Source of the DNA: Branchiostoma floridae
Lineage: Eukaryota > Chordata > Leptocardii > Amphioxiformes > Branchiostomatidae
Length of the DNA stretch: 64,000 nt
NCBI RefSeq assembly: GCF_000003815.2
Contig: NC_049983.1
Coordinates: 4,473,638-4,537,637 of the forward strand
Direction of reading: 5' to 3'
Shown: positions 2,429 through 59,000 of the stretch, piece after piece
Position numbering within the stretch: the stretch's first letter is position 1
Layout: the number at the start of each line of letters is the position of its first letter
Translations under genes and position numbers: made by a program
Notes under the pieces: model-generated
Told to the model about the DNA's origin: nothing
The model's input: the letters and a program-made list of their open reading frames with translations, nothing else
Databases searched by the model: none

Positions 2429-5400
2429 ATGTCTACAGCCGAACAGAAGCTACTACGGATACAAGAAGAGGCACAAATCACCCTGAAGGAAGCCATGAGG
2501 AACGAGAGGTCGAAGCGATGGAAGAGGGTGAGGGGAATATTTGGTGTTTGTTAACCCCGTTGTAGTGGCCGCAACCGGAGAATGTTGTGGCTATAGTCCC
2601 TACCTGCCGGTACGTTTGTGCTGGCGTGTTATGGTATAAACACGGTACACACGGGAGTGAAACATAGGTTATAGTTCCTAGTTTAGAAAGAAAGGATTCG
2701 TTTTGTTATATTTCCTGACAACAGCATACCAGTTCAGTTGTTGGAAAACGACAATTTCAAAATATTAGGCTTTTTTTTGTAGTTTGGTTGATGGGCTACA
2801 CTATTTCGGATTCTTTCTCCCAATTTTCAAGTGGTTTCTTTTTACGGGGGTGACCTACACGTAGCTCTGAATTCTACACCTGGTCCAGTATAACAGCGTT
2901 CAACATTTCGGCATGTTATATAATATTATGTATCTTCAGAACATTCAGAAATAAGACTCCACAATTGACGAAAATAACGAATAGACAGAAATGATAGATA
3001 TATAGTATTTTGTGGGGCTAGGAAGTTCTTGGTTTTCAAAATGAGAAGACAGCATACCGTTATGAAAAGGTCGGTCTACAGTTGCAGTACGTTAAGATGG
3101 TTAAATAAATATGCATGCCGTAACAGATGTTTATACAAATGTCACAGAGCCAGGCAACAGTTTAAGTCACAACATCGTTGGCATGTCAGGGGATTCGAAC
3201 CCAAGTTATCATTACGACAAAACGACATCTTAATAATACATGCGGTGGCCCGAGCCATCACTGTTTCGGACCCGGAAGAAAGATATGGTTACAGCCACAA
3301 ACGTTTTTGACGAAATTGACGTTGCTCCAACAGTTTCGTGTTCGAGGAAAGAAATGAGCCGCAGTGTTACAGTATTGTCATGTCACGTACAAGAATACGT
3401 TATTTTAAGAGAATATGGCTGGTACTCCATCCCTGAGACGGTATCCCATCATAACGGTATCTTCTAACGTATGTTTTGTTTCATACAATGCATACTCTGG
3501 AAGTGTTTTCACAAGCTAAGAGTAGGAAATGTGTACGGTTGTTCACTTATGAAAGGAGTCTGTAGGCACAGCGTTAATCAAACTGTTCCGCGGTAGTGTT
3601 TGCTTCACAGCAATCAGGGAAACAAATTGGTTTTACGGAATCCATGCGAGTTTTACAACTAGCAAGTACCATTTGTATGAGTACTTATAGGCACCCTGTA
3701 CATGTAACGCTAGTTCACCTTTATCCACTTGTTAACCCGTTTTCTTTGTAGAAACAGGACATTTAGTAATATCAAGTAAATGAATTCCAGTTTGATATGA
3801 CAATGGATATAGGTTGACATGCGTTACGTGCGTTAACGTTTCATAATCGGATATTGTGTACAGTCATGCGAGTCTATGCAAAGTTCACTCTCTATGCAAC
3901 GTCTGAAGGGAAACATTAATACTTCTTACTGATAAAGAAACAGAGTCACGGGGACATAAGACTGTGAGACATGTAACGTTATATGCTGACTGTGTAGGTC
4001 TACTCTACTGTATACAAAGTCACGCCAAACAGAAACACCGGTGAATCTAGGTCATCAGTACTTTACATGAAACACATCGAGTAACACCTGTTAAGCAAAA
4101 CTCAGATGCCGCAAAGTTCAGCATTTTGCCCTCACGACAAACGTTGTCGAAGCACCCATGGTAACGGCTAATGTGTTACTGCCAAACGGTGATTAATACA
4201 CAACCGTCGAGCTTTGTCCCCACCAAATTAAATTCCACACAACTGGCGTTTGATTTCGGCTCAGATTTAGCAACAAAGATATGTGCGAGATAAATGAGTT
4301 AAGGCGCCACGGTTGTGTGTACAAAGTAGAGCCTTCGCCGGATGACCTCATTAGTTCGTGAAAGATCTCTAAAAACATGGCTGGTGAGGTCGAATTGCCG
4401 AGTGGCTAACGGACAAGAGATCGGGGGCCACGGGCCGATTCCTGAATAGACGTACTCTACCTTCGCTCTACCGGGGGTAAAAATAGGGCCCTGACTTCGG
4501 TTGGGGAGGTAAAAGGTGGCGAAAGGCCTAGGGAGAAATGGGCTTCGCTTTCCATTAACGTGGTCAACAATGAAGAGCGGCCTGCAGGCCGATTTCAGCT
4601 TTCATGAATAAACATAGGTTCAAACAAACAAACAAACAACCCACATTGCCCTTATGGCCTCATAAAACGGTACGGAACTACATTTTCTGCGATGGAGGTA
4701 CTTTACACTGTTTTAGACGTAAGCGGTGAAACTTCTTCACGATGTCACAGAAGAATTAGATAAAAGTTTGTAAAATAACCACAGCTCTGGAAACTGTTAC
4801 CCCAGACAGTCGTGTTGTATTTACCGGAGACAACATAAGATCACGCAGGTCGCTCTCAGGACTTTACTGTCAGAACATTTAGCTCCTTGTCTTAAGGGCT
4901 GGAGACACACCTGTTCTTAAGTACCGGACTTACAGGCACAGGTGCCATATGGCGTAATGTCACCAGACAGACGTCGAACCATTGAACAGACATTTCTATA
5001 CGTTTGTACCTCTGTGTAAGATTATTCCGCGAAACGCCGCCTAACGCAAACAGGATAGATTTTCATTGCAGTGACAAAATAGCAATGATCACAGAAAACT
5101 AGTACATGCCAATGCAAGTATGGCACTTTTACAGTGTAGGTACATGGTAATGTAGGGCATGTAACAGTCCTATGTAGGAGTGTAGGACATGTAATATATT
5201 AGTGTAGGACGGGCACTTAACATTGTTGGATATGTAACGGTTTAGGACTTGCAACATTTGATTATACCGTTGTCGGGTACGTACATGTAATAGTGTAGTA
5301 CCAGAAGTGTATGCAGTACCGTAGGGCATGTAACAGTGAATGACACGTAGTGGCGTTGAAACGTATCAGTGTAAGACATACAGCAGTGTAGAACATGTAA

Positions 5401-20590: not shown

Positions 20591-20740
20591 TTAGAAGCTA
20601 TTATTAGAAAGATCTGACAGACATTGAAACTTAAGCCAGGTAAGAACATTCTGGTTGTGTTTAAGAATTCTCCTATATTCTACCAACCTACTAGTAATGA
20701 AATTATTTTTGGATATGCCTGTAGTAAGATGAGTCCGGTC

Positions 20741-20822
20741 CTGTGTTCAAGTCTTAGTCCTGACCAGTTTAAAGCCGTGTTCTGTGTTCAAGTCTTAGTC
20801 CTGACCAGTTTAAAGCCGTGTC
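20741..20822. repeat. 41-bp tandem duplication across the TMEM168 stop codon
   Basis: 20741-20781 and 20782-20822 are near-identical 41-base copies. The inner copy encodes the last residues of TMEM168 (HGFKLVRTKT and stop at 20788-20790); the outer copy repeats the same sequence, stop included, downstream of the real stop. Confidence 0.85.
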
Positions 20823-23800
20823 CTGTGTTCAGTAGTACCGGAGGCAGCCACTGCATCTTCTTTCTCTTCAAACACTTGAACAACCAATCACAGCAGCAGA
20901 GCAGCTCCACCTCGCCCCCCTGGCACCACGTGGCCACACGGACCAACGGTCGCGTCGCTCGCGGGAAGTGGCTCTCCCAGTGCTGCGCCACGTCCTCTTC
21001 TGACGGCGAATGGAAGTGGAAATCCGTCCAACATCGAGACACGGCGTACACGGCTTTGATAGTCCTGCCCTCTGCGGCCCAGTTGGTGCCGATATCGTCG
21101 CTACAGTTGTACGCGACCCACTCCTTGGTGAACTCCCCTACCTGTGTGGCCATCTCTGGGTCGTCTCTCTTACTCTGCTGGTACGACTGAATGGCTACGT
21201 ACACACCGTCCAACCGTCTGACCTGTGAACACAGACAAGTAAGATACAGGCAATCAGAGATGGCAGACTTCACCCCCCGGCCTCATACTCTGCTGGTACG
21301 ACTGAATGGCTACGTACACACCGTCCAACCGTCTGACCTGGGAACACAGACAAGTAAGATACAGGCAATCAGAGATGGCAGACTTCACCCCCTGGCCTCA
21401 TACTCTGCTGGTACGACTGAATGGCTATATAAACACCATCCAACCGTCTGACCTGCGAACACAGACAAGTAAGATAGAGGCAATCAGAGATGGCAGACTT
21501 CACCCCCCAGCCCCATACTCTGCTGGTACGACTGAATGGCTACATAAACACCATCCAACCGTCTGACCTGGGAACACAGACAAGTAAGACACAGGCAATC
21601 AGAGATGGCAGACTTCACCCCCCAGCCCCATACTCTGCTGGTACGACTGAATGGCTACATAAACACCATCCAACCGTCTGACCTGCGAACACAGACAAGT
21701 AAGATACAGGCAATCAGAGATGGCAGACTTCACCCCCCAGCCCCATACTCTGCTGGTACGACTGAATGGCTACATAAACACCATCCAACTGTCGAACCTG
21801 GGAACACAGACAAGTAAGATACAGGCAATCAGAGATGGCAGACTTCACCCCCTGCCTTTCATGCTCTTCTGGTACGACTGAATGGCTATATAAACACCAT
21901 CCAACTGTGTCTTACTTCAACAAAAATCAGAGATGGCAGACTTCACCCCCTGGCCTCATAATGCTGGTACGACTGAATAGCGATGTGAACACCGTCCAAC
22001 TGTCTGACTTGCGAATACAGACAAGTAATTACAAGATAGAGGCAATCAGGGATGGCAGACTTCACCCCCCGGCCTCATACTCTGCTGGTACGACTGAATG
22101 GCTACTACTAGTACATAAACACCATCCAACTGTCTTACTTCAACAATCAGAGATGACAGACTTCACCCCCCAACACCCCCCACCCCGGCCTCATACTCTG
22201 CTGGTACAAATTTAATAATGAATAGCCATTGAAACACCGCACAACTGTCTTTCTTCACATTCAACATAGACAAGTAAAAAAATACAACTTATTACAACAA
22301 ATCAGGGATGGCAGACTTCATCCCCCTATCCAGAAGCTTAAGGCTTTGAAAGCTACACACAAGGAAAGACAGGGTAATATGGATAACCCTAGGTATGTAT
22401 ACATTGTCAATTCAAAAGATTTAGAACATGAATAAGAGCAAACAAACAAACAAACAGAAAATCACTGAGGACAATTCTGTGCATGTGAGGTAGGGATTCA
22501 CAGTAGGGCTGGTACCTCAGGTGAATTATGGAATATACCATGCTGTACTTCATTTGATTTCTTATACCCAACCAAAAACATACGTTTCAATGTGCCAGAA
22601 AATTTGGTGTCCTTGAACAGAAAAATTGCAAATACAGCAAAATTTCAACATCAAATATTTAAATCTACAATGGCACATTCAGTGCACTGGAAGTGCGTTC
22701 AAATTCTTCTGAGCATCTGAGCGACAGTAGAACCACGGTCAAAAACACCCGTATTGAATGTCATCCCAGGTAGCCCAGGAATGACATAACTTATACGATA
22801 TGTTTGTCATGGAAATGATTAGCAGTCCAAGAGTGAAACTTCATCAGGGCATCTACAATTAGACACAGACTACCTAATGCATATGAAACCCATCTGTCTT
22901 ACCTGTCGCACCCAGTGGTGACCGTTATCCGTATCCAGGATGATGATGAGACGGGAGCCGGCATCGCTGTTTGTCTCCTTCCACCAATCCAGCAGGGTGT
23001 CCAGCTTTAACGATGCCGTACCTTAGGGGAGGGGGGTGGTGAAGCAAACAGTTACTCCAGGTAACATGCATGGGTGCCAGGGTTTGAAATACACATACTT
23101 AACTAATGCAATTTGCATGTAATTTTTGAGATTTGCACGCAACAATCTTGCATGTTGAAAATGCCTGGCCTATAGTAGAAATACTGAGGCCACAGTGCCT
23201 TTGTTTGTCTGACGAGGATTGTCACCAGTCGTCAGTAGGTGTTATAAATACATTAATCAAATTTGGCTTTGCTGCAAACTTACATGCTGATTATGTGGAT
23301 ATCTTTCCAAGATTTCGAGTTCTGTCTATATTTTCATGTGCCGATTTCTGTCCGTCAAATTTTCAAAAGTGACAGAATGGCCCAGACTTGTATCCATCCT
23401 GAGCAGCAAAATTCTGCCAAAGGACGGAATGATGGATGCTGGCTAGAACATTGCNNNNNNNNNNNNNNNNNNNNNNNNNNNNNNNNNNNNNNNNNNNNNN
23501 NNNNNNNNNNNNNNNNNNNNNNNNNNNNNNNNNNNNNNNNNNNNNNNNNNNNNNTCTAAGCAAAAAAAAAAGTCTTTTGATTCCTGGGTGCCCAGGGCAA
23601 AAGTGGGTTAGCCTGGGTCAATCCGGGGAGTACAATGTAGTTCGCTCCGGCATTCATTATATACTATATACATGTACAGTCACTTCTAGCTCTGATGTTC
23701 ATTATACACTATATACAGTCGCTTCTCTGCCATCTGGGAACCTGGTCCAAAGTTTGGTCCCTACACATGAGCGAATTATGGAGTGGGTTCAAGCGATCGT

Positions 23801-26800
23801 TCGAACAGGCGTTCCAACACCGGACAAGCTCTCCGTCTGCTTGTGGAGGCCTGTTGTCATCAAATGAACGCTCTAGAACCTATTCCTTGCTTCACTCATT
23901 ACTTGACGTTAGCACCAAACGGTTTGAATGTGCAGGTATCCAGATCAGGGATCGAAATACTTTTTTATTGCTATACATGCAAAATTGCAAGTTGGCAAAA
24001 ATTTTACGTGCAATTTAAAATATTTACATGCAAAATACAACTAGTCTATACTGCAACGTTCTAGCCACCATCCATCATTCTGTACTTTGGTGGAATGTTG
24101 CTGCTCTGGATGGATAAGAATTTCGCCCATTCTGTCACTGTTGATGGACTAAAATTGGCACATGAAAATATAGACAGAACTGCAAATTTTGGAAAGATAT
24201 CCACATAATCAGCATGTTAGTTTGCAGCAAAGCCGAAGTTGATTGTTTATAACACCTACTGACGACCGGTGATGATCCCCGTCAGACAAAGGCATCGTGG
24301 CCTCAGTATTTTTACTATATGTATTTTCAACATGCAAGATTGCAAGTTCAGAAAATTTTTACATGCAAATCTCAAAAATTATGAGCAAATTGCAAGTTAA
24401 GTATGTCTATTTCGAACCCTGCAGATGGATAGCAGACGTGAACATAGGAGCGAACTAATATCCGGATGGTACCCTGGCTAAAAGTGGGTACCAGTACAGA
24501 AAATTCAGGTACATGTGTGCTTCAGATCCAGCGATTTGCGTCCAGTAGACACAGGGTCAATATTTTACAATTTGGTTTCGCATGTGATTTTTTTTTTCTG
24601 GTGAAAATCATTCTTTGTTCATATGCATCAGTGCAAGTTGAACCAAAAACGTATTCCAGAGCCAATCCACCTTGACACTATATTCTGTATCAAAAATAAG
24701 ATCTACATATTGTATGCACCATTCCTTCCCTCAATGATAGTGCTTATGTGGAAATAAGCCACACATTGAGCCACCACGCCACACCAAAACCGTTTAACGA
24801 CCCAACATAATAATGTTGCACAGTCCGACCAACCTGGTGTGGTATCGCCCGCGGCCTTAAGACCTGGTAGTGAGGAGGGAGGGAGTAAGGATATATACAG
24901 GTACTAGTACATTTGTATTGTACAAAACTGGAACAATCAACATCACCCAGAGTCAAAAGGGCACCACCCCTGAGGTGTGGCCAAAAAAAATCTCACAGTT
25001 TACGGTCTCATTCATGAGTTTCCTTTGCACTGTAATTATATAATTCCTCCAATCAGTAAACACAGGGTTTTATTACGTGGGCCTTTTTAGATCAGTTGGG
25101 CTGGCTAAAATGGAATTTCCCACGGTCCCACCACTGTAAACACGCTTTCATGCAGCTGTTTACTTTCGGTACTAGCTCTTTCAGGTGCACTGCCCACTTC
25201 CAAAAAGTGTGTGTGAAAATATGATTCCTAGTGGACTTTAAAAATTTTTTGAAACTTTATACTTTACAGTTTGAAAAGAAGCTGACATATTATGGAAGTA
25301 AGTATCATAGATATCATTACATTCTACATTGATACATACACAACAGCACGGTACAGGAGAATACAAAACAGTACAGGACATTCAACAAGCCAACACAAAA
25401 AAGGCTCACCCAATTTTTCGACATATCAGACAACTCAAGTTATTGTCAATGCAAGGACTATAACAAATCTACCCTGAACTGAGACGGTGGGCGCCATACA
25501 ATAGCAGGGCTCAAAATACTTTTTTCTGCATACCTGCACTGGTGCAGGTAACACTGAAAATTACCTGCACCAGACAAATTTTACCTGCACCACTATGAAT
25601 TTAGGAAGTATGGATCATACTAAAATTGTTCAGGAACTATAGCTATTTTTTCTGTTATACTTTATAAGTGGTAACAGTCAATGCAGCTAATAACAATCCA
25701 GATACACCTACATCATACTATTCATAGGACATTTATGTATAAAACCCAGTACATGGACCAGTGCAGGTTAGGTGCAGGTAGACACCAGAAATACCTGCAC
25801 AGCTCCAATTTTACCTGCACTAACCTGCATATACCCAGTACATGGACCAGTGCAGGTTAGGTGCAGGTAGACATCAGAAATACCTGCACAGCTCCAATTT
25901 TACCTGCACTAAGGTGCATATGCAGGTGGTATTTCGAGCCCTGAATAGACTTTCTGCAAATTACAATCCACTGCTCACAGAGTCACATGTTCTATCCACA
26001 CACATGTAATGTGATGTTACAGAAGCAGTGGATTGTTCATTCCTTGACAAAGTCTGGTCTTCTAATGTCAAACATTGGAAACGTTCAAATTTTTGTGTTG
26101 GAAATTAAAGCTTAACTTTGATCCTGAATGACAATTCTACTTAGTCTAACACAAATGCATTCTCCATCCAATGGCGAAACTGCCTGTCTGGATGTACCCT
26201 GCTACAATGTATCTCACCGTCACTCTTTGTTCTTGTGGGCATCGCCACTAACCAGCTGTCAGCCAATCACAGAATAGGCCTTTCAGTTTTCAAAAGGGAT
26301 TTTGCATATACATGTATAAGAGTAAGCTCATTAATATTTATAAGCAGGGTGGTCAGGAACTAAGGGAGACGGTTGAGAAAACGGGGTACATCCAGACAGG
26401 CGGTTTCACTGTTGGATGTCCCTGCATAGGAGGATGATACAAATGAAGTTTGAAGTGAACATGAGTTATAGTGTACATACCTGACAGTGCCAGGTCCCCA
26501 CCAGGATGCATGTGTCCGCTGTAGTACACCACGTACGAGTCGAAGCGGGGCCCGTCGGGGGTGTGGCGCTCAAACAGGGCCTTGAGTTTGGATTCCACGG
26601 ACTCGAGCGTGAGGCCGCTGGTGGAGTAGTCGCAGCCGAACGTCTCCACGAGATGGTGCGTGAAGAAGCGCTGCATGCTGTTCAGGATGTCTGTGGACTG
26701 GCTCATGTAGTCCTGCAGGGCACTGGTGGGGAGCAGCAGCACATCACCCTCAGGGCTGCAGGAATAATACAGGGTAGGGTGAGATTGTACTGGAGGGGAG

Positions 26801-29800
26801 CAGCAGCACATCACCCTCAGGGCTGCAGGGATAATACAGGGTAGGGTGAGATTGTACTGGAGGGGAGCAGCAGCACATCACCCTCAGGGCTGCAGGGATA
26901 ATACAGGGTAGGGTGAGATTGTACTGGAGGGGAGCAGCAGCACATCACCCTCAGGGCTGCAGGAATAATACAGGGTAGGGTGAGTGAGATTGTACTGGAG
27001 GGGAGGAGCAGCACATCACCCTCATGGCTGCAGGGATAATACAGGGTAGGGTGAGTGAGATTGTACTGGAGGGGAGGAGCACCACCTCACCCTCAGGGCT
27101 GCAGGAATAATACAGGGTAGGGTGAGATTGTACTGGAGGGGAGCAGCAGCACATCACCCTCAGGGCTGCAAGAATAATGCAGAGCCGGGTGAGATTGTAC
27201 TAGAGGGGAGCAGCACCACATCACCCTCAGGGCTGCAGGAATAATACAGGGTAGGGTGAGATTGTACTGGAGGGGAGCAGCAGCACATCACCCTCAGGGC
27301 TGCAGGAATAATACAGGGTAGGGTGAGATTGTACTGGAGGGGAGCAGCAGCACATCACCCTCAGGGCTGCAGGAATAATACAGGGTAGGGTGAGATTGTA
27401 CTGGAGGGGAGGAGCAGCACATCACCCTCAGGGCTGCAGGGATAATACAGGGTAGGGTGAGATTGTACTGGAGGGGAGGAGCAGCACATCACCCTCAGGG
27501 CTGCAGGGATAGTATTAATACAATAGTAAGGATGTCTATAGACTGGCTCATGTAGTCCTGCAGGGCACTGGTGGGGAGGAGCAGCACTTCACCCTCAGGG
27601 CTGCAGGGATAATACAGGGTAGGGTGAGATTGTACTGGAGGGGAGCAGCAGCACATCACCCTCAGGGCTGCAGGGATAATACATCACAAAACTAAGAATC
27701 AGTTGTCACAAATTACGAATCGAATCAGGAAGACATAACCACACTCCTCTAGAGCAAAGAATATGCCAATTTTGTAGTTTAGGCAAAGTAGAAGATGAAG
27801 TACATTTTACTATGGATTGTCCTTTGTATGATAGCGATAGGAGCATTTTATGACTACTAATGTGTTAAGTAAATATCCCCACTTTAGGTACTTGAATAGT
27901 AAAGAGAAATTGATATTCCTGACAGCTTTTGATAAACCAACTCTAACCAACCATACAGCTAGCTACATTTATACAATTACCAAGAAGCGAGAGGAAGTCG
28001 AATGTCCTACAATAAATTAGATGCATATCTGCATATATAGATATATATAGATGTGTATGATTGTTTCCATTGTTACAAATATGTGTTTCTTACCATGTGA
28101 CCTGTACTTAGCCCAGTGGGGCAAAAATGTGCAATAAAGGTCTTCATTTAAAAAATATAAAAAATACAGGGTAGGGTTAGATTGCTTAATCTAACTAGAA
28201 AGGCAACATTTTTGAAAAAATGCAGGATGTGGGCGAAGGGAAAAGAAAGGAAAAATCGCAAGAAAAGAAACAACTAGAATGACAACATTTTCGCGAAAAT
28301 GCAGCAAGTCTTTCCCGTGGCCTTTTTTTGAAGTTTAAGTCAAACTACCTTACACACAATAGTAATTGCCATTAGGTGCCCCGTATTCTCGGTTCACCCC
28401 TATTCTCGGCCTTTACCTGACGTCACGGGTTGTGCTGTGTAGCAATTATAAAGCTGAAATTCATGATCAGGTTCAGGTCCGGTACCGTAGCCTCCATTCC
28501 AAATTTGACTTAACGCCGCAGGCGACAGACATCGACGATACAGTATTTGGCTGCCGCGGCCGGTATGGTCCGAGGCGTTGACGAGCCCCCCTCCCCACAT
28601 GGACCGTCCGACCGTTTAAACGCCGTCTTTTGAGGGCAATTAAAAAATAAATAAAAAGGCGTGTAAACTGAACGATGCTCTGTTTGCAAGATAAAATTGT
28701 TGTAAATATCAAAAAAGAAAAAAAAAAAGGACAACTAAAAGAAAGTTGTTCCCGCCCGGAATCGAACCAGGGTTGACCTAGCGAAAAAAACGCAATCGTG
28801 GCTGGTGCTTTAGCCATTCGGCCAAGCTTACCGTAACGTTATTGCCGGCATTTTAACAGGTAACATGTATACAAATGCAATGCGTAGCTTGAACACGTCC
28901 GTTCACTGTTTAATTTGCAAGATTCCAAGGTCCCATTTTCTGAAGATAATGTTTTTCTGTGCAAATTTATCAATCTTGTTCATTCCGTGGCGGGCAACTT
29001 CTTCCTTGAGCGCCTGTTTGGTCGAATGCATGGCCGATTTACTGCCGCGTCTCAGCTGCTATTATAAAACTGGATGCCGAATGACATTTTGTGTTCTCTG
29101 CGTTGATAGGTCCAGCTCTGACGTACACCCGAGACAGTCTGAATTTAGGCCAATCAAAAAGCTGGGAACGCGGAGTATTTGCTAACAGCTTCCATTTTTC
29201 TGAGTTTTGATTGGCTATTATCAAAATGGATGCCGATTGTGTCCTGCGCGTTGATAGGTTCACCTCTGACGTACAACCGAGAAAGTGCGACTTTAGGCCA
29301 ATCAAAAAGCTTGAAACATGGAGTACATGGAGGCTTCCATTTGTTTCTGATTTCCGGTGAAATACTTGTAAGAAAACTATATGTGTGGCTTCGCCCACAT
29401 AATTACATGGTACATGGGGAGCTTACTCAGCTTAGTAGTAGAAAAGTCTGATTTAGTGATTACTGAATACTATTTCTAAGTTCATGTATTTTGCATTCAA
29501 ATTGTACATTTTTGTTCTGTTTTCTCCTTTGTCGTTTAGTTCCTTTTGCATATAGTGGCAGTCTGACTGACTGACTGACAGTATTAGTGGTAGAATACTT
29601 TTTGGTGTGCACCAAACTACTTGTTAGTAGTGGGTACTAAAGTGATATGGCAAACATATATTATATACTCAAATTATCATCTATCAATTGGAAAATAACA
29701 CCCCTTCTGAAGTTTAGGGTACCTTTGAGATCCAGGAAAGTTGCCTTTCTTTACTTCATTACATGTAGACTTGTGTACTAGTACTAGTAGTAGATTACAT

Positions 29801-31237
29801 ACAATGTATGTATGTCTTGTAATTGCTTGCTAGGATGCACATGCGGTTTAAGCATAACTCATCAAGAACCTAGAACCTATTACAATTATCAAAAGCAAGA
29901 AGTTAATTATAAATTGTAGTAAACTAGTACCAATAACTTATCATAAATTCATATTTCTAGACATCTCACCTGTATGAGTTGGATGGCGCCACCATGGCGT
30001 ATCCGATACACGTGCCCCCGACACTCCTCCCCAGGTCGTGCAGGAGGCCGTGTATTGTGATCTCTACGGGCAGAACAATGAACAGGAAGGCGAAAAACAT
30101 GGTGTTTGTCGCCTGCCACGACACCGCGGCGAGCATCCACGTACTGAATATCGTACACAGCGCCAGTCTCTCCGATATCTGGCTGAAGTGTCGCACTCCC
30201 TTCGAGGCCATGATACGCGTCATGTTCTTGGTATCTTCTCCGTACGCTTTGTACACCAGTACGCATTCGTTCAACTTGCGCGAGAAAACCCAGCAAGTCA
30301 CGATGAAGACGATGTGGAAGCAGATCCAGAGGATTCCAAAAATGACGAATCCGGGAATGACGAAAAATAACTCTTGGAAGTGCCGGACAATCATGCCAGA
30401 GAAAACCATGAACGTGATGTCTACTACCACAGTGACTAGGATCACTAATCGTTTAACGTGTTTACTTTGGAATATATACCACTGCCATCTCTCCACAGTC
30501 GTAAGGTTGGAGAAATAGATGTCTAGCAGCGGTGCTATGCAGAGGCGACCAGCGAAACACGACGCCGCGTACGGATTGATGGTCTTTTTGAGCGTGGGAA
30601 AGAAAATTGCTATCGACAGTGCTAGGAAGACGGTGAAGTTCGGGACGGCAAGAAGCGCCTTTTTCCGCATGGCGATAAGCCCCAGGGCAAATGCGACCGA
30701 AAGGAAACACACATCCGCCCACTTCTGTCCGAGTAAAATCGTGGCCGTGGCAAACCCGGCTGTTTCCATCAGCTCACTGTTGGTGAGCAGATTGGAGGTG
30801 TATTTGATGTAGTTACAAGTTCTTTCCACCATCGCCCAGAACAACGACAGTCCGACGCTAGTCATCAGCAAAATGTTCATCACTTCCTCTTTCTCGTCGT
30901 AGCGAAAGCTCTCGTTTTCCGTGAACGCCATCATTCCCAACAAGCAGCCGAACCAGAGGTGGGCCAGGCTCTCGCTGAAGTACTCCATACTGAAGTAGTA
31001 GTGTAGGGCCATGGCGATAGCAAACACGAATAGTCCGCCCAACGCCACCACGAGCACGAACACTTCCTCCGTGGCCTCCCATCGCGTGTAGAGTCCGAGT
31101 GAGATGGCGACCAGCAGGACCAGACTGGGCAGGAAGCCCAGGTAACGAATGCTGAAGTGCATCTTTCGAATCTCCTTCATTTTGATCATCAGCGTGGCAC
31201 TGGCATGGCTAAAGAAGTATCGTACTGATCGATTCAT
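20788..31237 (-). CDS. TMEM168: TMEM168 orthologue, 4 coding exons, complete (698 aa)
   Basis: Exons on the minus strand: 31237-29970, 26755-26481, 23021-22903, 21222-20788, with phases 2, 1 and 0 at the three junctions; total 699 codons including stop. From memory the vertebrate protein is 697 residues. The first exon encodes about ten hydrophobic helices between residues 30 and 410 (for example LVLLVAISLGLY, FVLVVALGGLFVFAIAMA). Residues 420-698 form a soluble C-terminal domain with YVVYYSGH (497-504), SGTASLKLDTLLDWW (514-528) and RLIIILDTDN (538-547). The molecular function of TMEM168 is poorly known; it is an intracellular multi-pass membrane protein. ATG 31237 opens MNRSVRYFF; a 5' UTR acceptor is likely at 31302. 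Odd features: two introns carry arrays duplicating the downstream splice acceptor, and a 41-bp duplication spans the stop. Confidence 0.93.
21223..22260. repeat. 115-bp array duplicating TMEM168 exon 4 acceptor
   Basis: Immediately upstream (in gene sense) of TMEM168 exon 4, about six good 115-bp copies (to about 21840) and several shorter decayed ones (to about 22260) are stacked. On the minus strand each unit contains TGTGTTCCCAG|GTCAGACGG, i.e. the exon 4 splice acceptor, followed by about 50 bases of exon 4 up to CAGCAGAGTA, then intron sequence. The exon-proximal junction at 21222/21223 is taken as the real one because only it continues into the full-length open frame. Confidence 0.9.
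22540..22800. mobile_element. Diverged copy of the 10912-11330 repeat
   Basis: Contains, in the same order, CTTATACCCAACC, ACATACGTTTCAATG, CCAGAAAATTTGGTGTCCTTG and a terminal GAATGACATAAC, paralleling the element at 11060-11330. Intronic in TMEM168; no coding capacity. Confidence 0.5.
23072..24423. mobile_element. Large foldback element, arms about 370 bp
   Basis: The left arm (about 23072-23454) and right arm (about 24055-24423) are reverse complements at roughly 85 percent by eye. Shared landmarks include CTGCAAACTTACATGCTGAT, ATGTGGATATCTTTCCAA and TCTGTCTATATTTTCATGTG. The outer ends read GGGTTTGAAATAC and TATTTCGAACCCTG, related to the GGGCTCGAAATAC family seen elsewhere. The left arm stops at the gap. 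The centre shows no coding sequence. It lies in TMEM168 intron 2. Confidence 0.8.
23455..23554. other. Assembly gap (100 N)
   Basis: Exactly 100 N at the inner end of the left arm of the foldback element; the long inverted repeat is a plausible cause. Confidence 0.95.
25507..25944. mobile_element. GGGCTCGAAATAC-type MITE rich in TGCACCTGCA palindromes
   Basis: Begins AGGGCTCAAAATAC and ends GTATTTCGAGCCCT. The interior carries many ACCTGCAC and GTGCAGGT motifs in both orientations, and a segment near 25760-25900 is partly duplicated. The same family, interrupted by insertions, is at 46704-48357. Non-coding, in TMEM168 intron 1. Confidence 0.75.
26162..26430. mobile_element. MITE, ACATCCAACGGCGAAACCGCC family (copy 1)
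   Basis: Left end TCCATCCAATGGCGAAACTG with GTCTGGATGTACCC is mirrored by GGGGTACATCCAGACAGGCG through TGTTGGATGTCCCTGC. Related copies are at 37029-37250 and 54222-54356. It ends about 50 bases from TMEM168 exon 2. Confidence 0.75.
26756..27690. repeat. 67-bp array duplicating TMEM168 exon 2 acceptor
   Basis: About 13 units lie directly upstream (gene sense) of TMEM168 exon 2. On the minus strand each carries CCTGTATTATTCCTGCAG|CCCTGAGG, the exon 2 acceptor plus about 27 bases of exon 2 coding SPEGDVLLLP. One unit at about 27530-27600 contains a longer exon segment (through the TSALQDYMSQS equivalent). The real acceptor is at 26755/26756, since only it leads into the complete exon. Confidence 0.9.
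27690..28150 (+). mobile_element. LINE 3' end fragment with CxxC-H motif
   Basis: Plus-strand translation of about 27692-27840 reads TKLRISCHKLRIESGRH, then CQFCSLGKVEDEVHF and DCPLYD, after which the frame decays. The same peptide pattern occurs on the minus strand at 54692-54880. From memory this Cys/His module follows the reverse transcriptase in several metazoan non-LTR elements. The fragment ends with GTGCAATAAAGGTCTTC, a LINE-like 3' end. Degenerate and non-functional. Confidence 0.6.
28751..28835 (-). repeat. tRNA-like sequence with A and B boxes
   Basis: The minus strand reads GGCCGAATGGCTAAAGCACC (A-box-like) and, about 45 bases on, CCTGGTTCGATTCCGGG, a T arm with a 5-bp stem and TTCGATT loop. 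The expected 7-bp acceptor stem (3' strand CGGGAAC) has no partner upstream, so I call it a tRNA pseudogene or SINE head rather than a working tRNA. It lies in TMEM168 intron 1. Confidence 0.35.
29055..29360. repeat. Diverged tandem duplication, about 150 bp
   Basis: Two adjacent segments share GCGTTGATAGGT, CTCTGACGTACA, TTTAGGCCAATCAAAAAGCT, then GGAGTA and GCTTCCATTT in the same order (about 29055-29205 and 29213-29360). No coding pattern is conserved between them. Intronic in TMEM168. Confidence 0.65.
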
Positions 31238-31302
31238 AGAGACGCCATTGTTCAGCTTCTACTGTCGTAACGTCATATTTGTGGATGATGCAAACTGTGG
31301 TC
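31238..31302 (-). other. TMEM168: TMEM168 5' UTR portion of exon with ATG
   Basis: On the minus strand TTTTCTCTGTTCTAG|GACCACAG gives a good splice acceptor with the exon starting at 31302, 65 bases before the ATG at 31237. An upstream non-coding exon is therefore likely; the best donor seen is at 32338 (TTTTTG|GTGAGA). Confidence 0.5.
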
Positions 31303-48300: not shown

Positions 48301-51300
48301 GTTATCTGCACCAGTGCAGTCTGGTATGCAGAAAAAAGGATTCTGAGCCCTGCAAACATATTCACCTTTCTAGACATTAAGAGACAAACGAATTTATACA
48401 ACAGTAAGTGTTGTCCGTGGAAACTCAACCATTTGACTGTTAAGGCCACGCTTTTTATGCCCCATATTTCAAGTCGTGGCCTGCTGGTAATGTACATACA
48501 TAATGTACTATTTCAATTGAAAGAATTAGCTTGCCTCAATATCATGAAAATTATGTTTCTGTGATCAAACATGCTTATACTGTAGTAGATAAGACTTAGG
48601 TCACAGCATTAGTACATCATGTAACCTTTATGGATGACATCAGTGCATAGTATTACATTGATAGCTCTGTGACGGAGGGTAACCTCTAATGATGGAGTAT
48701 TATTGTTGGTGGATGTGATGACTATTTGCATCTGTATCTCTATGTTCTGTTTGCCACATTCGTATGTAATTTGACATGTCGTGTGCCCTCAGTTGCGCCA
48801 TTACAGTATGCACGTTTTCTTCGCAGTCGCTGTTGTAATCAATGTAATAATATCAGAAATCACCCCTATATTTCCGGTATTGTGGAACAGGCCATTGGTT
48901 TTGGGGTTTGGTAATCAGCTTATCTCCAAGCAGACATTTGGTGTGATACTAGTGACTCATGTAGTTAAACTGTTCTGTATAATATGTTATGTATAAGTTG
49001 CCATACACTGTATCCTCTGCACTACAGTTGTCGTGCAATAAATTTCTTCTTCTTCTGTGTTGTCTAATGTACAGAACAGCTGTCGCGGTACAGGATCCCT
49101 AAACAGACTCTGGCTAACTACACACAGTGCATTGCATTGGTCATTGCCAGTGTTATGATAAACAAGTACATAATTTGTCCAGGTAAGCTACCAGTAATAT
49201 TAGGGCTTCGTTTTCTTTCCAGTTCATCATTATTTCCCTGTCTAGGAAAATTCAATGTCAATATCATCAGCATAATAGATATTATTGCAACTGATGCAAA
49301 GGAATTCCATGAATATGTCACAGAGTATGTTTCCTACGCTCACTGGTTTTTGTTTAAATTAAAAAAAAAACAATCTCTTCAATAAAATAATATGTCGTAA
49401 ACCTCCGTCAGTCTATCTCATCAAAAATTTCGAGACCTCATAAGATATTAAAAGCAATTGTAAATTTAGTCTTATATTTTCTCATTAATTATGCAATCAG
49501 TGTGATATATTTTTGTTTGGATCACCCGTCAGATTGAGGTTAACATTCTGTCATGAATTATGAAATTATGCACATTTGCATAGGTAATGAATTGCGATGT
49601 AAAAATGACGGCATTGGTCTCGCCTTACACGGGGGACATTGCTAACAAGGGACCAGTTTCACAGGGACTGCCTTAGACAAGACAAAAGGAGAGCGAAGCA
49701 TGGTATGTGCATTTAGTAAGCAACAGAGCTTACTCTCTCTCCAGGCATACCGGCTGTTTCCCTATGACGGCATTGGTCTCGCCTTCCATGGGGGACATTG
49801 CTAACAAGGGACCAGTTTCACAGGGACTGCCTTACACCGTACAAAAGGAGAGCGAAGCATGGTATGTGCATTTAGTAAGCAACAGAGCTTACTCTCTCTC
49901 CAGGCATACCGGCTGTTTCCCTATGACGGCATTGGTCTCGCCTTCCATGGGGGACATTGCTAACAAGGGGCCAGTTTCACAGGGACTGCCTTAGACAAGA
50001 CAAAAGGAGAGCGAAGCATGGTAGGTGCAGAAGTAAGCGACAGAGCTTACTCTCTCTCCAGGCACACCGGCTGTTTCCCTATGACGGCATTGGTCTCGCC
50101 TTACATGGGGGACATTGCTAACAAGGGGCCAGTTTCACAGGGACTGCCTTAGACAAGACAAAAGGAGAGCGAAGCATGGTATGTGCATTTAGTAAGCAAC
50201 AGAGCTTACTCTCTCTCCAGGCATACCGGCTGTTTCCCTATGACGGCATTGGTCTCGCCTTACATGGGGGACATTGCTAACAAGGGAGCAGTTTCACAGG
50301 GACTGCCTTAGACAAGACAAAAGGAGAGCGAAGCATGGTATGTGCATTTAGTAAGCAACAGAGCTTACTCTCTCTCCAGGCATACCGGCTGTTTCCCTAT
50401 GACGGCATTGGTCTCGCCTTCCATGGGGGACATTGCTAACAAGGGAGCAGTTTCACAGGGACTGCCTTACATAATACAAAAGGAGAGCGAAGCATTGAAG
50501 GTGCAAAGTGAGCTATGTTATAGAAGTATGTTGAAGGTATGTGAAAGTGAACAATGTGAATTTTGTGAAAGTGATAGAAATGGGAGGATTTTTTCGAGAC
50601 AACATTGTCTACTTCAGGAGGAGATGAATAAATTAATGTAAATAAGGACCTTATTTGCATAATGAATTAGAAACGTATAATTAATATAATAACGAATGAT
50701 ATAATAGTTGTTTTAAATCATTTCATCGAGGTCTGTGATTGTGGAACTCTTGTTTAAACATGAAACTTTTTTAGTTTTCCATCCATTTTTATAAAAAGTT
50801 GCTGCCAATATCTTCAAGCTTTGTCAGATGTCAATTTTTTCCAGGATTAGTTTTCTCCTTGGAAGCGAATTCAAAGAAACGGCAATCACATGAGTATGTA
50901 GTGCAGAGACTTACAAGTGTAGTTTCCAGGATTTGATTATTGTATCTCTTGATTGATAGTATTTGTCTTTCAATAATTTTACCCAACATGTTTTGGTAAT
51001 TGTGTTGTCCACTGTGAACATATTGACTGGCCAATAGTTCTGTCAACTATGTCATCATGTGTTAGGTATATACAACTTGTTTGATGATTTTGACATGAAA
51101 TTCCTCTTCTGCATTAACACATTGTGTGTTTGAGTTGTACACATGTACAGGTGACTGTTCATTGATGGGGTGAGCAGGTGCCTTGAGAGAAGAAAAGAAA
51201 GGCTGGATCTTCATTCGAGGCCTTTCCATGCATGAGCATCCTACAGGCCCCGGAGGGCACACCGTGCCGGCCACTCCAGGTCTATGGAGAAGCGATCAAA

Positions 51301-56097: not shown

Positions 56098-59000
56098 ATG
56101 ACTGACTCCGGTGCCCGGTCCGCAATGCCGCCGCCCAGTGAGGGTCTAGGCCGCGCCATGAGCCCGCAGCGGCGTCCTTTTTGGAAGAGGAACGCCCCCA
56201 AAGTGCCCGGCAGGTAATTATTATGACGTGGTCACTTTTCCTTATCTGAAAGTGGAAAAACCAGTTGTTGTACTTGTATTAAGGAACTTTCTGTTTTTTA
56301 TTTGATAACGTTACATAAAAATCACATGGACTGCTTATCATAACCGACTGTTGGCTAATAGCTAACTAGTATAGTAATATAGATCTGAACTTACTACACA
56401 GTCACTGAGTCTCGTCTAATACCTTTGATAACGTTAATATTTGTACAATTACTTTAAAAACAAAGGATAGATTATCAATATTCATAACCAGCAGAGATGG
56501 CAAAATTCACCCGATTATCCGTACTGTGTTTACGAGCCATATGCAGTCCCACAATAAGGTCGTTCAATGAAATTGCATGGAGGATATGTAAAACAATATT
56601 CACTGAATGATAATATTTAAATCACAGAAGCACACACACACACATACAAACACACTGACCAAGTTGTGCTGACAGATCAAATCCCCCAAAACCAATATTT
56701 CACTCGCTGGGAGTATTCTGGGCTTCTCCAGAAAGGGAGCCAAACCTAGAAATAGCCAACAAAGCTAGAAATAGCCAACACCCAGTAACGCTTTATCCAA
56801 CTTGATTCCAAGGACGTTTTATAACGCATATCATTATACATGTAACGTTACAACTGTATGTAGTGTTTTATAGGACAATTGTGGCTTTGGGTTGCATTGC
56901 AGCCGTCACATATCGTGATAAATTTTGTTTTTGTTGTTGTTGTTGTCCTTGTTATTTTGCTAGACGTGGCCTCTTGGTGCTGAGTAACACATGGTTCGCT
57001 TTTGAGTCAAGAGTCTCTCTTGGTATTTAACTCTTGGTTCCTTGTGCAATAGACTTTGTTATTCTTCACCAATTGTTAGTGCTGCAATATACAGTTGATA
57101 TTTGCTCATTTTGCAGCTGCCACCCTCATCATTGTATGACTTACAATTAACCTAAGGTCAAAAACTCAAGAAATTTACACAAATTGATGTGCACAGATTC
57201 CATCTATATACTACATATGCATGTACTAGTAATTGAATGAACATGACCTGACAAAGATTAATGTTGTCTTTCAATATAATTGTATTTCAGGTCTGTGCAA
57301 GCCAGTCCCATTAGGGAGAATCTAAAGGACCAAAAACCTAGAAAGACTTTGTCATTCCAAGATTTTGAGGATAACACCAGTGATGCTTGGGATGATGCTG
57401 AAGATGAGATTATTGCGCTCTCTGAGGCGAAGCTCTCTTTTGAAAACTTGTTACCTGTCTCGGTGAATCACGGCAAAACGGCGAGCACCAATCAGGCAAG
57501 CCTGCCTCAGCGGTTAGAGGAAGTAACGGGAGAAAATACAGTTCCAGTAACAGGAGGTATGTATGGTGGAGCTGTTGTCTTGTTATTTAAGTAATGATGA
57601 CATTTTTATCAGGTCAGACTTTGTTTTTGTGTCTATGTGTTTGTGTGTGTTTCTGTGCACCTATGTGTGTGTTTCAATGTGTGTGACGTGTGTATGTGTG
57701 TTTGCTTGTGTGTGTGTGTGTATGTGTGTTTTCACATGTGTGTGTGTGGGCACGATAGATAATGGATTGTGGCAGTGCATTTGTGTACCGAAATTCATAT
57801 ATAAATATTTCAAACATAATTAGAATGATGCAGAATATACATGTATGAAGGGTTATATGGGAGCTTCAAGTAGGACTGGGAGAATTCTTAATGGCAATAC
57901 CTTATGGTTTTGTTTTCTTACTGTCCTAGACTTTCCAAGCCAACAGGCAAGTTCAACAGGCAAGTCAGAAGAAGTGTCGTCCGTCAGTCGACAGAAAGGT
58001 GTGGGTCCGGGGGTTGGGATCAGACAGAGCATACCTGAAGACTCGAACACAGCACCAGCCATGCCCCCTGTACATGTACACCCCCCACCCACAGTCAACA
58101 CCAGGCATTCAGGTAGGAACACAGCACCAGCCATGCCCCCTGTACATGTACACCCCCCACCCACAGTCAACACCAGGCATTCAGGTAGGAACACAGCACC
58201 AGCCATGCCCCCTGTACATGTACACCCCCCACCCACAGTCAACACCAGGCATGCAGGTAGGAACACAGCACCAGCCATGCCCCCTGTACACCCCCCACCC
58301 ACAGTCAACACCAGGCATTCAGGTAGGAACACAGCACCAGCCATGCCCCCTGTACATGTACACCCCCCACCCACAGTCAACACCAGGCATTCAGGTAGGA
58401 ACACAGCACCAGCCATGCCCCCTGTACATGTACACCCCCCACCCACAGTCAACACCAGGCATTCAGGTAGGAACACAGCACCAGCCATGCCCCCTGTACA
58501 TGTACACCCCCACCCACAGTCAACACCAGGCATTCAGGTAGGAACACAGCACTAGCCATGCCCCCTGTACATGTACACCCCCACCCACAGTCAACACCAG
58601 GCATTCAGGTAGGAACACAGCACCAGCCATGCCCCCTGTACACCCCCACCCATGGTGAACACCAGGCATTCAGGTAGAGAGTGCTAAGGTGTCAGAGCAC
58701 CGATCCTGCTATGTTGTATCCAAGATGCGCTTCTAGCCAAGGCGTTCTTCAAAGCACATCCTGGCTAATATATAATCATTGACAACACCAAAAGAGCGTA
58801 TATGGATGTCCATGATTGGTTCTGATTGGAACAAGACTTGGATAGAGCATGTTTTGGACAGGCTGTGCCTCCTGTACACCCAATACCCATGTTTTCCACC
58901 AGGCATTTAGGTATGATTGTAAACAATTCGCACTTAAATAACTGGCTCAATCTTTTCTCTTGCTCACAATGGATTGTACACAATGGCAAAATTCGAGCCA

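Follow-up and report, generated by a model that had tools for sequence, protein, structure and literature searches.

Within a 64,000-nucleotide (nt) stretch of the Branchiostoma floridae genome on contig NC_049983.1, hereafter the window, a TMEM168-like gene on the minus strand carries a tandem array whose 115-bp unit crosses the 3' splice site of intron 3 and takes in ~50 nt at the start of coding exon 4. This array is very probably a mirage minisatellite of the amphioxus type, produced by repeated local tandem duplication of 115 bp across the intron 3/exon 4 boundary. Tandem Repeats Finder (TRF) reported 6.4 copies of the 115-bp unit at positions 21167 to 21905 (95% matches, score 1271). Combined TRF rows extend the array to 22105, and unit anchors, which mark degenerate copies, reach about 22330. 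No TRF array with a score of at least 50 appeared in 20 dinucleotide shuffles of positions 20600 to 23000. Together with a reading of the individual copies, these results confirm the junction array, acceptor and roughly 50 nt of exon 4 included, that the initial annotation had described.

On the gene strand, a well-kept unit consists of a 49-nt slice of exon 4 followed by 66 nt of intron containing the sequence GGTGAAGTCTGCCATCTCTGATTGCC, a pyrimidine-rich stretch, and the AG. In the five copies that have decayed least, the minus strand reads TTC(C or G)CAG/GT (slashes mark splice boundaries), followed by ~50 nt resembling exon 4. The AG at the homologous position is intact in five of the nine upstream copies and is lost or moved in the other four (Table 1). 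Six exact copies of GGTGAAGTCTGCCATCTCTGATTGCC have their low ends at positions 21249, 21364, 21479, 21594, 21709, and 21824. A donor-like CAGCAGA/GTATG follows seven of the nine exon copies; GC occupies the donor position at the copy starting at 21913, and the motif was not found at the copy starting at 22008. The array had been credited with creating this donor-like site, but the native exon already reads CAGCAGA/GTAAGA, which scores better, and the array therefore did not create it.

The differences between copies bear on how the array was built. Over 48 nt and without gaps, the exon copies differ from the native exon at 0, 4, 3, 3, 6, 10, 7, 20, and 21 positions, from nearest to farthest, with the last two counts inflated by insertions. 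This broad rise in divergence away from the exon, together with a nearest copy that matches it at all 48 nt, makes outward growth of the array from the working junction probable. The four further copies with an intact AG have three differences in common, all of them synonymous, which would suit copying from a constrained exon at an earlier stage of its evolution, although few sites are involved. Units reading CCCAG and CGCAG alternate along the array, which suggests a later doubling or expansion of a two-unit block.

We therefore picture a 115-bp stretch spanning the boundary that would have been duplicated locally, in tandem, and repeatedly, with the selected exon side acting as the master copy from which growth proceeded outward, and with the two-unit block expanding afterward. 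The array could persist because its copies remain intronic provided that splicing uses the 3'-most acceptor. That it started here may reflect an intron end already carrying a dispersed, duplication-prone core of the kind found near 3' splice sites. Several points weigh against this account. Divergence does not rise at every step away from the exon, and a 100-N gap at positions 23455 to 23554 leaves room for local assembly errors. The intact acceptors of the copies score 3.9 to 4.8, compared to 3.6 for the native acceptor, and some misuse is plausible. Finally, harmless splicing of the array is assumed by analogy with a published reverse transcription-PCR statement, which describes normal splicing of Adh3 and the globins despite the copies.

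Table 1. Features of the TMEM168-like gene and its arrays (window positions, ordered from low to high start)
Feature	Positions	Strand	Basis or remark
Coding exon 4 (144 codons and a stop)	20788..21222	-	68 of 144 aligned positions identical to human TMEM168 C terminus
115-bp junction array: native junction and nine upstream copies	21167..22330	-	degenerate beyond ~21905
Native exon 4 acceptor AG (TTCACAG/GTCAGACGG)	21223..21224	-	sequence
Dispersed core GGTGAAGTCTGCCATCTCTGATTGCC, six exact copies spaced 115 bp apart	21249..21849	-	exact genome search
Nearest exon copy, 49 nt to donor-like GT, AG intact	21289..21337	-	matches native exon at all 48 nt compared
Four further exon copies with intact AG (starts 21452, 21567, 21682, 21797)	21404..21797	-	
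Four decayed exon copies (starts 21913, 22008, 22138, 22253), AG lost or moved	21865..22253	-	
Coding exon 3, donor CAG/GTAAGA	22903..23021	-	high end from exon prediction and reading frame
Coding exon 2 (containing PEGDVLLLPTSALQDYM)	26481..26755	-	
67-bp array across exon 2 acceptor: native and 13 upstream copies	26722..27667	-	
Coding exon 1 region	29970..31258	-	long open frame; donor ACAG/GTGAGA; true start not fixed

Amphioxus mirage minisatellites have been published for Adh3 and for the globins BflGb6 and BflGb9 (PMC3087553), and troponin C (TnC) and PGBD5 have been added as cases (PMC3902484). The TMEM168 array is a further case of these already described mirages, in a new gene. Like them, it is built of units in tandem that straddle a boundary between exon and intron, and some of these units retain the splice signal while others have lost it. 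Unlike the published cases, it shares its gene with another array, and part of its unit is a dispersed core that adjoins other acceptors as well. Somatic and allelic instability was reported for Adh3 and allelic instability for BflGb6 (original Adh work, as related in PMC3087553). In the single haplotype of the TMEM168 array, the distal copies are decayed and a two-unit alternation is visible, which may reflect unit turnover with boundary units left out of homogenization. The mechanism generating mirages is called unclear in a passage of the 2010 globin paper (PMC3087553), and neither the dispersed core nor a genome-wide tally of mirages was the subject of any title or abstract opening listed in a literature search. 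In the Rogers model, as cited in PMC3087553, introns are gained by duplication around an AG/GT proto-splice site. The TMEM168 duplication resembles this model in carrying splice signals able to become an intron later, and differs from it in that the copies stay inside an existing intron, with no evidence of a gained intron here.

Copies that combine an acceptor with a donor-like site could in principle be spliced, and the initial annotation proposed that each unit is a potential micro-exon. We consider it highly unlikely that the units serve as usable micro-exons or as regulated poison exons. Five copies do retain an acceptor with a GT donor-like site 49 nt downstream, and the other 66 nt of the unit contain a branch-point-like CTGAT. 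However, on a simple handmade score, the donor-like site reaches only -0.6 to -0.8 in the copies, compared to 7.4 for the true exon 3 donor, and the native exon holds a better one (1.8) at the corresponding place. The 49-nt slice also shifts the reading frame: modeled inclusion of the nearest slice before exon 4 leads to a stop after 33 codons for one copy and after 41 codons for two to six, and no productive inclusion was found. Entry at any of the five copies with an intact AG, with the array retained, would give a stop after 27 codons, compared to 144 codons for the native exon, and entry over all nine copies would do so after 13 to 30 codons. With early stops predicted from use of either an upstream acceptor or a copied slice, the copies have no positive splicing role in these models. 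Because of the 49-nt slice and the early stops, they are predicted to be silent at best and otherwise to yield transcripts that go to waste.

The gene also contains a second array. This array is real: its 67-bp unit (26722 to 27511) spans the exon 2 acceptor, and it likewise fits the published mirage description. Comparison of the two supports the earlier statement that their units are unrelated. All 13 upstream copies found carry CAG/CC, with the limit that the search pattern contained CTGCAG and allowed up to 7 substitutions, so that copies lacking CTGCAG could be missed. A larger piece of exon 2 is copied again at about 27530 to 27600. From the two arrays, the initial annotation had suggested either a mechanism that targets splice junctions or tolerance for their duplication. 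Tolerance proved the right emphasis, whereas targeting is unproven and, in our judgment, unlikely.

This assessment draws on a 283-kb sample consisting of the window, four CCT genes, and loci fetched for the core, most loci having been picked by the core. Exons were called with a simple predictor, whose training set of 1580 codons came from CCT and TMEM168 exons and which was applied partly to the same loci; its main set of 60 exons (120 junctions), against 0 on reversed sequence, excludes the native exon 4 acceptor of TMEM168. Local duplications of at least 40 bp are present in 17 of 20 8-kb loci. In the sample, 8.7% of all positions and 8.4% of those near predicted exons fall within local duplications. 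At ~8.4% per position, the chance of at least two hits among the six coding-sequence junctions of one gene is about 0.08. Within the main set, 12 of the 120 junctions lie inside local duplications, compared to 9.2 ± 3.0 in shifted controls (p = 0.21), as do 2 of the 60 exon midpoints. Looser and stricter sets, which used slightly different splice cutoffs and gave 17, 7, 4, and 1 exons on reversed controls at thresholds 14, 17, 20, and 24, produced mixed results. At threshold 14, 22 of 242 junctions were duplicated versus 13.5 expected (p 0.003); at threshold 17, 19 of 200 versus 11.5 (p 0.001); at threshold 20, 18 of 166 versus 9.3, with 0 of 1000 shifts as high; and at threshold 24, 9 of 128 versus 6.9 (p 0.21). 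The check for junction enrichment thus found no significant excess in the strict sets (12/120 and 9/128) and an excess of up to about twofold in the looser ones. Removal of duplications touching the core left 17/242, 16/200, 15/166, and 7/128 against 11.5, 10.4, 8.2, and 6.0 expected, a 1.5- to 1.8-fold excess at the looser thresholds. This remainder speaks for targeting, as does the duplication of two boundaries each in TMEM168, L013, and L020. However, the core guided the choice of most loci, and some exons called at the looser thresholds may themselves be copies, which would inflate the excess. The window and the four CCT genes taken alone show no excess at any of the four thresholds (2/90, 2/78, 2/66, and 2/54 versus 2.5, 2.2, 1.7, and 1.5), and local duplications overlap only 1 of the 52 ends of 26 profile matches in the CCT genes. 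Tolerance combined with an abundance of duplications suffices as an explanation, and a modest junction excess may exist beside it.

Other boundaries in the sample are also duplicated. The acceptors at L009 and L020 are duplicated, as tested against shuffles. An acceptor and a donor of one gene, which we take to be iron-alcohol-dehydrogenase-like, are each duplicated at about 3372 to 3861 of L013 (boundaries by eye). On the reverse strand of L020, at about 3262 to 4063, a presumably zinc-finger-like gene has a 138-bp donor-side array, and its next exon shows a duplication of core, acceptor, and exon start. Judged by eye, L021 has a donor-side duplication, and L030 has a marginal copy of an exon start that runs no more than about 4 nt beyond the presumed acceptor. 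Genes that we presume to be thrombospondin-like and kinesin are among the loci with boundary duplications.

The 26-nt core in the intronic half of the 115-bp unit is itself dispersed. Exact matches occur at 48 genome sites, which form 37 clusters by our own count, and the reversed control gave 0. Aligned copies have roughly AGTATGGGTAAGGGGGTGAAGTCTGCCATCTCTGATTGCCTTGTTT in common, the perfection of the core in the alignment being by construction, as the searches required it. In some pairs, weaker similarity extends upstream of the core for as much as about 220 nt (61 to 68% identity with the low-complexity filter off), and GC content around 29 core sites rises slightly downstream (0.44 to 0.46 versus about 0.40). 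An Rfam search of seven core loci gave nothing at the gathering threshold. Acceptors were assessed at 27 exact-core sites, namely, 21 of the 30 loci L029 to L058 together with L063 to L068; the six TMEM168 loci, L046, L047, and L052 were left out. A predicted acceptor and coding stretch with a score of at least 8 lies 8 to 90 nt downstream of the core at 5 of the 27 sites, one of them doubtful (L067, 68 nt away), compared to 2.3% of 2394 controls; the binomial p of 0.0003 is rough, given that the score-8 row was picked afterward and control positions overlap one another. The corresponding figures were 7/27 versus 9.0% at threshold 0, 5/27 versus 4.5% at 4, 3/27 versus 1.5% at 10, 2/27 versus 0.9% at 12, and 0/27 versus 0.3% at 15. 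Among 40 loci, the core lies in sense orientation to the acceptor 11 times and in antisense once at score 4 (7 versus 0 at score 8), counts that include an array artifact (L017) and two loci in or beside arrays (L022 and L035). CTGAT in the core would then stand at the usual branch-point distance before acceptors.

The core is also found within duplications. Eight of 30 other loci have it inside a local duplication, compared to 5.8% of 4216 control positions (p 0.00025), a count biased upward in that multicopy clusters are likelier to hold an exact core. Of the 37 clusters, 31 were assessed. Among eleven core-proximal acceptors picked by eye, two (L009 and L020) have a duplicated junction upstream, with 0 of 200 shuffles as good. 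In both, the duplicated stretch includes the core, the acceptor, and the exon start, and TMEM168, from which the search originated, is the third such build. Short downstream matches at L055, L031, L012, and L049, reached by 0.005 to 0.06 of shuffles, were left uncounted, although those of L055 (14 nt) and L049 (gapped) cross the junction. Microhomology at the duplication breakpoints, judged by eye, differed among TMEM168, L009, and L020, and we do not claim it. The core also occurs in tandem arrays at L017, L022, L024, and L028, with unit lengths of 42, 46, 45 to 60, and 84 to 101 bp, and the array at L022 adjoins a predicted acceptor.

Introners are dispersed elements that supply both the 5' and the 3' splice sites. 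A core that is likewise a dispersed sequence associated with intron ends could be part of an introner-like mobile intron bringing its own splice sites, which the 48 exact sites against none for the reversed pattern, the upstream similarity in some pairs, and the excess of sense-oriented cores beside acceptors would all fit. For the core, however, an association was found only with the 3' splice site. No donor excess was seen within 90 nt upstream (0/27 at score 8 versus 1.1% of controls, weak evidence with only 0.3 expected), most of the 27 exact-core sites have no recognized exon alongside, and by-eye reading of a few introns placed the upstream exon at a distance of several hundred nt, outside the shared part. 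We regard an introner-like origin as quite unlikely. A tentative and somewhat less doubtful idea is that a mostly sense-oriented, duplication-prone element, whose core holds the branch-point-like CTGAT, settles or survives upstream of 3' splice sites and drags the acceptor and exon start into arrays, which would make it the cause of at least one class of mirages (TMEM168, L009, and L020). The dispersed core may account for the susceptibility of this intron end to duplication.

Four coding exons of the TMEM168-like gene were read. We take the gene to be TMEM168 because the exon 4 product is identical at 68 of 144 aligned positions to the human TMEM168 C terminus. A Pfam search of three pieces of the predicted protein returned no family at an E value of 0.001, and the name is therefore putative. 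Elsewhere in the window, a 72-bp array at 58045 to 58677 has an open frame (NTAPAMPPVHVHPPPTVNTRHSGR repeated) with CAG/GTAGG in its TRF consensus unit and is possibly coding or another junction array. A 159-bp by 5.6-copy array at 49605 to 50495 has units 95% alike and overlapping open frames.

Mirages have so far been described gene by gene, and TMEM168 adds a gene with two of them, while a small sample of the same genome shows further boundary duplications. The dispersed core, at the place expected for a branch point ahead of acceptors, is a possible cause of some mirages that lends itself to testing and may be a lead worth following for the duplication-prone intron end. If the core is indeed a cause, it would become possible to ask directly how the correct acceptor is selected when several near-complete copies are present and whether arrays of this kind are a source of new introns.
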